Assembly: GCF_003669015.1 (NCBI RefSeq) | Contig: NZ_CP033069.1 | Coordinates: 124,001 to 188,000, forward strand | Origin: Acidovorax sp. 1608163 | Lineage (GTDB): Bacteria; Pseudomonadota; Gammaproteobacteria; Burkholderiales; Burkholderiaceae_C | Direction: 5' to 3' | Length of the DNA stretch: 64,000 nt | Shown here: in pieces, positions 14,229 through 32,792 of the stretch | How positions within the stretch are numbered: the stretch's first letter is position 1 | How the letters are laid out: every line of letters begins with the position of its first letter | Program-made: the position numbers and the translations under genes | The notes under the pieces: generated by a model | Seen by the model: only the letters and a program-made list of their open reading frames with translations | Databases searched by the model: none | What the model was told of the DNA's origin: nothing

Positions 14229-14275
14229 GGCCTCTAGCGCTTGATGGGTAAGCGCTAGCAGCTATGAAATTGATA
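14229..14275. repeat. AGCGCTTAT palindromic repeat between ubiX and ubiD
   Basis: An intergenic copy: CCTCTAGCGCTTG, spacer, TAAGCGCTAGCAGCTATGAA, then a TATGAAATTGATAG tail. The transcript would fold into a hairpin within the ubi operon; no T-run follows, so transcription probably continues. Confidence 0.85.
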
Positions 14276-18284: not shown

Positions 18285-18336
18285 TGCTATTGAAAATATA
18301 GCTGTTAGCGCTTATTGGATAAGCGCTAGAGGCATT
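18285..18336. repeat. AGCGCTTAT palindromic repeat
   Basis: A full intergenic copy: GCTATTGAAAATATAGCTG, then TTAGCGCTTATTGGATAAGC and GCTAGAGGC. It lies between the ubi promoter region and the 3' end of the alpha/beta hydrolase gene. Confidence 0.88.
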
Positions 18337-23083: not shown

Positions 23084-23668
23084 TCAGGCGTTTTCGAAGC
23101 GGAACACCGCCGTGCCTGCCAGTGCATTGGGCAGCCAGCGCACTTCCTGCCCGTCTTGTAGCCCGAAGGAGTCGAGGATGCGCAGGCGGTTCTTGTGCGC
23201 CAGCACCTCAAAGTCTTTGTACGTGCCCACGCGGATGTTGGGCGTGTCGTACCACTGGTAGGGCAGGCGGCGCGTGACGGGCATGCGCCCTTGCAGGATG
23301 GACAGCCGGTTGGGCCAGTGCGCAAAGTTGGGGAAGGCCACCACACCGGTGCGGCCCACGCGGGCGGTTTCGCGCAGCATCACTTCGGCGTTGCGCAGGT
23401 GTTGCAAGGTGTCGATCTGCAGCACCACGTCAAAGCTGTTGTCTCCAAACATCGCCAGGCCTTCGTCCAGGTTGAGCTGGATCACATCGACCCCGCGCTG
23501 CACGCAGGCCAGCACGTTGGCGTCGTCAATCTCCACGCCATAGCCGGTGCAGCCGCGCTCGCGTTGCAAATACGACAGCATGGCCCCGTTGCCGCAGCCC
23601 AGGTCCAGCACGCGCGAGCCCGCTGGCACTAGGCGCGCCAGAGCTTCCAGGGTGGATTGTTCGCTCAT
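23084..23668 (-). CDS. metW: MetW, methionine biosynthesis protein
   Basis: A 194-residue class I methyltransferase-fold protein. SAM-site motif I reads [16 protein letters not shown], and the segment [19 protein letters not shown] is diagnostic for MetW. MetW is encoded with MetX and is required for full homoserine acylation activity in proteobacteria that use MetX as a succinyltransferase. The ATG overlaps the metX stop by four bases, so the pair is translationally coupled and shares the SAM-II riboswitch upstream. Confidence 0.94.
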
Positions 23669-24846
23669 GCAAACTCCTTTGCAATGCTATCGAAATAAGA
23701 GCGCATCACGCTCATGTAGCGGGCGTCATCGAGCAAAAAGGCATCGTGCCCGTGGGGGGCGTCGATCTCGGCATAGCTCACGCGGCGGCGGTTGTCGAGC
23801 AGGGCCTTGACGATCTCGCGGCTGCGCTGGGGCGAGAAGCGCCAGTCGGTGGTGAAGCTCACCAGCAGAAACTTGGCCTGGGCGCGTGCCAGCGCCAGGG
23901 TGAGGTTGTTGGCGTGCGCGCGGGCCGGGTCAAAGTAGTCGAGCGCCCGGGTGATCAGCAGGTAGGTGTTGGCGTCAAAGTACTCGCTGAACTTGTCGCC
24001 TTGATAGCGCAGGTAACTTTCGATCTGGAACTCGATGTCCTGCGTGCTGTAGAGATAAGCCCCCACGCTCTGCGCTGGCGCGTCATCGCTGCCCCCCAAG
24101 GGGGCTTTTTCGAGCACCTGGTGCCTCAATTGGCGGCCAAACTTCTCGTTCATCACGTCGTCGCTCAGGTACGTGATGTGGCCAATCATCCGCGCAATGC
24201 GCAACCCGCGTTTGGGGATGACGCCGTGGCGGTAAAAGTGCCCGCCGTGGAAGTCTGGGTCCGTCACGATGGCGCGGCGGGCCACTTCGTTGAAGGCAAT
24301 GTTCTCGGCCGTCAGGTTGGGGGCGCTGGCCACCACCACAGCGTGGCGCATGCGCTCGGGGTGCTGCAGCGTCCAGCTCAGGGCTTGCATGCCGCCCAGG
24401 CTGCCGCCCAGTACGGCGGCCAGTTGTGCGATGCCCAGGCGGTCAAGCAGGCGGGCCTGGGCGTTGACCCAGTCTTCCACCGTCACCACCGGAAAGTCCG
24501 CGCCGTAGATCTCGCCCGTGTCGGGGTGCGCATGCATCGGGCCGGTCGAGCCGAAGCACGAGCCGAGGTTGTTGACGCCAATGACGAAAAAGCGGTTGGT
24601 GTCCACCGGCTTGCCGGGGCCGATCATGTTGTCCCACCAGCCCTCGCTCTTGGGCTGGCCCTCGTACACACCCGCGACGTGGTGCGAGGCATTGAGGGCA
24701 TGGCACACCAGCACGGCATTGGACTTGTCGGCATTGAGCGTGCCGTAAGTCTCAAAGGCCAGGTGGTAGTCGCGGATGGACGCGCCGCTTTGCAGCGGCA
24801 GGGCCTCCGGAAAATGCATGGATTGGGGCGTGGCAATGAACGACAT
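23665..24846 (-). CDS. metX: MetX, homoserine O-acyltransferase
   Basis: A 393-residue alpha/beta hydrolase-fold enzyme that acylates homoserine in methionine synthesis. The nucleophile S149 is in [13 protein letters not shown]; the Asp/His end is near [12 protein letters not shown]. With MetW present, succinyl-CoA is the likely donor. Residues 245-262 ([14 protein letters not shown] region) look like an insertion in the lid, coded by a GC-rich repeat-like stretch. The start is ambiguous: ATG at 24846 ([10 protein letters not shown]) or 24861 (MPGFF); neither has a clear ribosome site, and 24846 follows the U-run of a terminator hairpin directly. Confidence 0.93.
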
Positions 24847-24880
24847 AAAAAAACCCGGCATCGCTAAAAACGAGGCCGGG
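24847..24880 (-). terminator. terminator hairpin, expression platform of the metX riboswitch
   Basis: Read on the minus strand, CCCGGC (24880-24875) pairs with GCCGGG (24859-24854), extended by CGA/TCG, and is followed by seven U residues (24853-24847) that end at the metX ATG. It is a good intrinsic terminator placed in a leader. Its 5' arm overlaps CGCCCG (24882-24877), which can instead pair with CGGGCG of the aptamer (24924-24919). Confidence 0.8.
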
Positions 24881-24895
24881 CGGGTATGTCGGACG

Positions 24896-24948
24896 GGTCT
24901 TTAGCAGGATTTATAAAGCGCCCGCAAGCTGTGGCAAATCGGCGCGTT
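24896..24948 (-). promoter_or_regulatory. SAM-II riboswitch aptamer upstream of metX
   Basis: The minus-strand leader reads GCGCCGAUUUGCCAC, then AGCUUGCGGGCGC, then UUUAUAAAUCCUGCUAAAGA. This reproduces the SAM-II (metA leader) order of conserved blocks: P1 strand, GAUUUG, GCUUGC, P1 return strand GGCGC, UAAA and GCUAAA. P1 GCGCC/GGCGC pairs perfectly. The ligand in this family is S-adenosylmethionine, so excess SAM should switch metX-metW off. The class is best known from alphaproteobacteria. Confidence 0.88.
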
Positions 24949-24953
24949 CGGTA

Positions 24954-24962
24954 AATATACCA
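24954..24962 (-). promoter_or_regulatory. extended -10 promoter of metX
   Basis: TGGTATATT on the minus strand is an extended -10 (TGn plus TATATT). No good -35 is seen, as is usual for this type. The predicted start near 24947 coincides with the first base of the SAM-II aptamer. Confidence 0.6.
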
Positions 24963-32743: not shown

Positions 32744-32792
32744 GGCCCTAGCGCTTATTGATAAAGCGCTAGCAGCTATATTTTCAATAGCA
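32744..32792. repeat. AGCGCTTAT palindromic repeat
   Basis: A clean full copy: CCCTAGCGCTTATTGATAAA, GCGCTAGCAGCTATATTTTC, AATAGC. It ends just before the stop of the minus-strand GGDEF-EAL gene. Confidence 0.9.

Follow-up and report, generated by a model that had tools for sequence, protein, structure and literature searches.

SAM-II riboswitches were defined in 2005, with a promoter directly ahead of P1, a terminator following P2 and a member from Bordetella (Corbino 2005, PMC1273637). Two years later, transcriptional SAM-II was described as the common arrangement among alpha- and beta-proteobacteria (PMC2258182), and SAM-II leaders with terminators have since been described in Sinorhizobium (Scheuer 2022, PMC9373788). 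The survey of Leyn (2014) reports SAM_alpha from Rhizobiales and Rhodobacterales only and describes, before metXW of beta-proteobacteria, an element of 10 of 11 Comamonadaceae with a possible pseudoknot and a terminator, which its authors considered novel and called metXZ (PMC4239095). As summarized in a review, P2 and L1 of SAM-II are exposed without SAM and protected with SAM, and P1 is protected in both conditions (PMC10907184). Structural work on SAM-II, as presented in these sources, centres on a translational example, and metX leaders constitute many natural variants with terminators.

We analyzed a stretch of 64,000 nucleotides from Acidovorax sp. 1608163 (hereafter, the window) which carries such a leader. 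A preliminary description of the locus had proposed a SAM-II riboswitch with a terminator before metX and had considered a transcriptional version unusual here. The earlier reports from alpha- and beta-proteobacteria (PMC2258182, PMC1273637, PMC9373788) contradict this last point, so that the original reason for interest falls while the observation itself stands. Our analysis suggests, with a probability of about 0.74, that the leader is a SAM-II riboswitch controlling the transcription of metXW with an antiterminator formed by GCUAAAGAC and GUUUUUAGC. The type of element is known; the useful part is the antiterminator, which is better supported than the one first proposed.

Layout of the metX leader

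All features described here lie on the minus strand. The leader before metX and metW (24962-24847) presents, in this order, an extended -10, the aptamer core, a 15-nt linker, a terminator and a U-tract that reaches the AUG. The aptamer homology, the terminator, the promoter position, the alternative helix and the energies were all computed here. The gene metX (23665..24846, start ATG 24846-24844) has homoserine O-succinyltransferase MetX as its best NCBIfam model, and metW (23084..23668), which overlaps the end of metX, matches TIGR02081 with 238.6 bits (cut-off 189.5). The aptamer is thus found in the leader of methionine genes, the context of SAM-II members, and the placement before metXW in Comamonadaceae with a terminator after it is that of metXZ.

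Homology to SAM-II

When the leader region (601 bases) was searched against 4227 Rfam families, RF00521 (SAM-II) was matched at 24955-24882 with 24.6 bits (E 0.0022) over all 79 model positions. The preliminary description had named this model as a check, and the outcome is divided: the match is the best in the source genome (5.05 Mb; E 0.0043, runner-up 16.3 bits), but it is below the curated gathering cut-off of 36 bits and is unlisted at gathering. Weak matches to RF00521 were also obtained in 14/14 control genomes at E 10 and in 7/14 at E 1, and the genome E-value alone is therefore modest evidence. At the cut-off, RF00521 was detected in 50/200 genomes of the same family, counting matches anywhere in the genome, whether before metX or elsewhere, versus 0/14 control genomes. 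Across the phylum, 83/398 genomes presented a match at E 0.001, including 69 above the cut-off; the source genome is absent at E 0.001. SAM-V, described as a related pseudoknot that lacks the last 3' pairing element usually present in SAM-II (PMC2704228), is similar in this respect, but the leader gave no match to SAM-V up to E 10; the match is to RF00521.

The conserved blocks were then considered directly. GAUUUG, UUGC, AAAU and GCUAAA are all present in the window copy and in this order in the RF00521 alignment, and the pattern GATTTG-TTGC-GCTAAA occurs a single time in the 5.05-Mb genome. For comparison we used a sample of 200 genomes of the family, 194 of which have metX at E 1e-60; the 150 best-listed leaders were retained, one from each of 149 genomes plus a second copy, and these represent the closer relatives of this metX. 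The core was present in 137 of these 150 leaders picked by metX alone. Six leaders found via RF00521 only were added, for a total of 156 leaders from 155 genomes, and the strict motif was found in 143/156; three others (L067, L077 and L158) carry, by eye, the motif with one altered base. A profile built from 139 family metX leaders, with the window's genus excluded, yielded one match in the 64-kb window, at 24946-24897 (the aptamer core), with an E-value of 1.9e-16. In a second set of named genomes (the 80 top-ranked among 582 confirmed matches), 70/80 metX leaders present the core, many of them from Acidovorax, Comamonas and relatives. At the level of sequence, the leader-profile match and the widespread presence of the core ahead of metX in the family settle the homology to SAM-II, in agreement with the preliminary description. 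The contrast between 50/200 genomes passing RF00521 and 137/150 metX leaders with the core suggests that the Rfam cut-off misses many members of the family.

Judging by gene, clade and description rather than by alignment, it is very likely that the metXZ element is SAM-II. Both precede metXW in the same clade, with a pseudoknot fold, a terminator after it and mostly one copy per genome (PMC4239095). The authors' section on the element makes no mention of a helix between GCUAAA and UUUAGC. If this assignment is true, a family-wide metX leader, in 2014 a novel element of unknown effector, can be assigned to SAM-II.

Some loci depart from this pattern. Ten of the 156 metX leaders are without the core in the ~300 nt examined (L049, L057, L060, L061, L106, L108, L113, L132, L136 and L151). 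Some of these seem to begin directly after a neighbouring gene, as if the element had been lost or relocated. In genome G132 (L029, 1501-1578), a second match to SAM-II, of 40.6 bits, was observed before a frame (1606-2868) which, by eye, looks like an enzyme of the MetZ/MetY type and not metX. Finally, genome G121 presents, away from metX, two RF00521 matches of 29.8 and 28.6 bits (G121:C1:1655340-1655416 and 1657257-1657333), one on each strand and with about 1.8 kb between them.

Structure of the aptamer

The stem P1 is present in the window copy as GCGCC (24941..24945) paired with GGCGC (24918..24922). We tested six pairs of P1 in the leaders: three of the six changed on both sides, and 91.4% of the cells of the helix were paired. 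In 31/60 leaders, and in the window, the outermost pair is open. The sequence GCGGGCGC at P1 is nearly invariant in the leaders of the family. The loop L1 (24924..24940, GAUUUG...CUUGC) is conserved in the RF00521 alignment and in the leaders of the relatives, and its UUGC is presumably one side of the pseudoknot, as in the structure of the SAM-II family. The distal pairs of P2 are not supported: the window presents a run of 2, and runs of 3 between L1 and the tail were barely above random tails across the leaders (0.34 versus 0.28, and 0.56 versus 0.51). The GC x GC core of P2 is invariant and thus uninformative about covariation. The unsupported distal pairs may be the reason for the low Rfam score.

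The leader resembles RF00521 as originally described in its blocks GAUUUG, UUGC, AAAU and GCUAAA, its P1, its methionine gene, its promoter just before P1 and its terminator behind (PMC1273637). It differs in its score of 24.6 bits versus the cut-off of 36, in the undetected distal P2 and in the near-invariant GCGGGCGC at P1 of the window's family. These differences make it possible to imagine a relative of SAM-II without full function, in which the clade of the window has lost the distal P2 pairs and now binds SAM weakly, binds another ligand or is read by a protein. We consider this quite unlikely. The score under the cut-off and the unsupported distal pairs speak for it, but the relatives retain the SAM-II core blocks almost without variation, and metX is among the listed targets of SAM-II (PMC4239095).

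An additional hairpin (CCGGAACC...GTTCCG type) was observed between the 3' strand of P1 and GCUAAA in 19 of the 143 motif-bearing leaders (L048, L054, L056, L063, L065, L066, L069, L071, L075, L086, L089, L094, L096, L099, L102, L105, L109, L116 and L118). By eye, its arms vary complementarily across species.

Promoter and terminator

The leader starts with an extended -10 (TGG-TATATT, 24954..24962) from which the RNA is expected to begin near 24948-24947; no two-hexamer sigma-70 site was found by a promoter scan at the metX leader. A -10-like hexamer is located within 45 nt before GATTTG in 140/141 leaders (TATACT in 92), and 127 of these 140 are at 11 to 17 nt. A control stretch 100 nt further upstream presents such a hexamer in only 13/130 leaders. 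From this difference, a transcription start at the foot of P1, as the preliminary description had it, is well supported by sequence comparison, though not proven.

The aptamer is followed by an intrinsic terminator hairpin (24853..24881, GCCCGGCCTCGTTTTTAGCGATGCCGGGT) of -18.5 kcal/mol, whose upper part is CTCG-TTTTTAGC-GA, and by a U-tract of 7 T (24847..24853) ending at the start codon (ATG from 24846), as previously noted. The window hairpin was unlisted in an automated terminator scan, probably because its stem rule disallows a 1x1 mismatch. A terminator is found within 120 nt of GCUAAA in 130/143 motif-bearing family leaders, with the wrong hairpin chosen by our finder in at least L044, and behind the aptamer in 69/70 motif-bearing leaders among the 80 named genomes. 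The leader thus has a terminator between aptamer and start codon, the arrangement of riboswitches that terminate transcription.

It is also conceivable, although unlikely, that translation is the target of the switch, alone or together with transcription, with the terminator hairpin and the U-tract abutting the AUG hiding the ribosome site and termination being partial. The U-tract does end at the AUG, no good Shine-Dalgarno sequence is found ahead of the AUG, and the Sargasso metX SAM-II is usually viewed as translational in the sources that discuss it (PMC10907184, PMC9373788). Against this, the distance from GCUAAA to the start of metX homology is 40-119 nt in 135/143 leaders, with extremes of 12 and 228 (the value of L165 being 69 nt too small, with its motif count unaffected). 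This distance is variable while the terminator is kept in 130/143 leaders, which places the position of the AUG outside the conserved device. Termination of metXW transcription in the presence of SAM, as the preliminary description predicted, is the likely output under our model.

An alternative helix between aptamer and terminator

The 3' strand of P2, GCUAAA (24905-24900), together with its tail forms GCUAAAGAC (24897..24905), which can pair with GUUUUUAGC (24863..24871) in the upper stem-loop of the terminator through nine consecutive pairs, including one G-U. We propose GCUAAAGAC as the switch strand and 5' half of the antiterminator and GUUUUUAGC as its 3' half. A second short helix was predicted between CCG (24890..24892) and CGG in the 5' arm of the terminator (24878-24876). 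Since GCUAAA also serves as the 3' side of the pseudoknot that binds SAM, the antiterminator and the SAM-bound fold would be mutually exclusive. The helix overlaps both the 3' strand of P2 and the upper stem of the terminator, it is favoured in the growing transcript, and its covariation is partial.

With GCUAAAGAC x GUUUUUAGC forced, the best fold was -28.4 kcal/mol, versus -30.9 kcal/mol for the fold with the terminator. Taken by themselves, the nine pairs of the antiterminator amount to -7.8 kcal/mol, or -17.0 with P1; the fold of -28.4 includes further pairs, among them six between AAAUCC and GGGUUU of the terminator 3' arm. In the growing transcript, the antiterminator had a probability of 0.89 to 1.00 when the exposed 3' end was at 24864-24856 and the terminator was incomplete, and the terminator prevailed (0.90 or more) once the free end reached 24854. 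As a stand-in for SAM, we forced P1 and blocked GCUAAAG and L1: the upper stem of the terminator then reached 0.41 at 24862 and 0.95-0.98 from 24860. The minimum-energy fold at full length is the terminator, so antitermination depends on the order of folding. The decision would be kinetic and go to whichever partner is the first to capture UUUUUAGC; since the pseudoknot and the polymerase are both outside the ViennaRNA model, this folding result is a plausibility argument.

The preliminary description had assigned the role of antiterminator to a different pairing, between the 3' strand of P1 (CGGGCG, 24924-24919) and CGCCCG (24882-24877) at the 5' arm of the terminator. These six pairs do exist in the sequence, GCGGGCGC is nearly invariant, and the pairing is close to a proposal of 2014, in which GC-rich regions 3 and 4 were speculated to act on the terminator stem (PMC4239095). 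As an antiterminator, however, it appears very unlikely. It requires a broken P1, a stem reported as protected with and without the ligand (PMC10907184), its forced fold has -19.1 kcal/mol versus -28.4 and -30.9 kcal/mol, and for all transcript lengths that we folded it had a probability of 0.00. Covariation in related leaders, the other proposed check, was found for P1. For the pairing of GCGGGCGC with the 5' arm of the terminator, we recorded the longest run in each of the 69 terminator-bearing leaders from named genomes: it was 4 bp in 46 and at least 6 bp in 11.

Comparative evidence for the proposed antiterminator

We then compared the helix between GCUAAA and the terminator across relatives. 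The helix reaches at least 6 bp in 65 and at least 9 bp in 38 of the 130 family leaders with a terminator; among the 69 named leaders, these numbers are 63 and 50. The background consisted of 311 other terminator-like hairpins, of which 15 allowed at least 6 bp and 5 at least 9 bp, the window's own strand being used throughout for these hairpins and each leader being paired with its own tail. A looser count of hexamer complements near T-runs was rejected as a test: GATTTG scored 95/155 and GCTAAA 68/155, which proves nothing. The rate of its shuffle control (0.20 versus 0.43) was too high because the T-run of the loop had been left unshuffled; the 311 hairpins were used as background instead.

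The tails fit their own terminator loops better than re-dealt ones, with a mean extension of 2.28 versus 1.52 and 0/5000 shuffles as high (50 unique combinations). When 86 leaders were placed on a metX tree, the two partners of a tail pair both changed on only three branches, one of which ends paired; with so few independent double changes, much of the significance of the shuffles reflects relatedness. Matched duplexes are also stronger than re-paired ones, with 0/60 re-pairings as low in both classes of leaders (62 and 68 leaders). We aligned the 62 leaders with a TTT[AG]GC partner, a selection to which the 100% of helix 2 is due. In this alignment, 92.5% of cells were paired versus 28 to 45% with slid partners, and at all three tail pairs both partners vary. 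The alignment misplaces some GAGG-type loops, which undercounts their pairing. When the partner was shifted by 2 in an anchored slide test, tail positions +1 and +2 were as good or better (0.87 and 0.89 versus 0.87 and 0.69) and position +3 was much worse (0.24 versus 0.71).

Individual leaders present compensating changes. In seven leaders the tail is GAGG instead of GAC and the terminator has CTTCTTTGGC, TCTCTTTGGC or CCTCTTTGGC, for a helix of 10 bp. Farther lineages show CAG x CTG (L224 and L229, from one genus) and GCG x CGT (L231), and in L112 and L080 the tail is, by eye, one base shorter and the loop one T shorter. The helix is shorter than 6 bp in 65/130 family leaders. Many of these (with tails like GAGGGACGCC) have the alternative of a pairing between the tail and GGTGTCC in the 5' arm of the terminator (seen in the best 40 of 68 listed). 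In this class, too, matched duplexes beat re-paired ones. At alpha-type loci, matched duplexes were no better than re-paired ones, with 27/200 as low (17 unique; 41 of 58 loci recognised by pattern, the other 17 being left out, and 37 with a terminator), a difference without significance. Overall, the comparative support for the helix between GCUAAA and the terminator is good but not complete, as judged from these alignments.

These results lead us to favour, somewhat more tentatively, a broader interpretation. In beta-proteobacteria, the strand which closes the binding pocket (GCUAAA with 3 to 6 tail bases) would also be the antiterminator, pairing UUURGC in the terminator, such that the bases that sense the ligand are also those that operate the switch. 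This subtype of SAM-II would be the metXZ element of 2014, and a second subtype would pair its tail with the 5' arm of the terminator. If true, this would represent a short, testable switch with one conserved hexamer for both ligand binding and antitermination. The helix between GCUAAA and UUURGC was not found in our literature search of open-licence PMC papers.

Proposed mechanism

SAM binding by this copy, the direction of its response and a role of the helix in vivo are inferred. The RNA would begin at the foot of P1. In the presence of SAM, the pseudoknot would keep GCUAAA (24905-24900) in P2, the downstream terminator would fold, and RNA polymerase would halt at the U-tract before the AUG. 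In the absence of SAM, the free GCUAAAGAC (24905-24897) would pair with the emerging GUUUUUAGC (24871-24863) and remove the upper stem-loop of the terminator. The pairing of CCG with CGG would meanwhile occupy part of the terminator 5' arm, and the polymerase would continue into metX.

A similar output is predicted for the SAM-II leader of metZ in Sinorhizobium, where a SAM-dependent terminator gives a short RNA (PMC9373788). That leader, unlike ours, belongs to an alphaproteobacterium and to metZ, and the likeness is drawn from the description of the platform in that paper. The same study offers a further alternative: as discussed for metA of Sinorhizobium, the terminator could be constitutive, a fixed attenuation, with the aptamer acting on RNA stability or translation. 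The metA SAM-II also has a terminator, and its authors were unable to predict a SAM-II-driven antiterminator (PMC9373788). In the window, by contrast, an antiterminator that uses the switch strand can be predicted and shows partial covariation, and fixed attenuation appears highly improbable.

Other features of the window

The metX leader is accompanied by a Mn2+ riboswitch (RF00080, 25590-25772 minus, 74.8 bits for a cut-off of 45) located before a gene at 25573-25007; two riboswitch leaders are thus found within about 0.8 kb. This gene had no match in an NCBIfam search, and we take it to resemble a family of small membrane exporters. Finally, the window contains a dispersed palindrome (TAGCGCTT...AAGCGCTA) in three exact copies (14235-14257, 18306-18328 and 32749-32771) versus 0 in 100 shuffles. 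Hairpins like this palindrome are also found among the terminator-like hairpins that we used as background.
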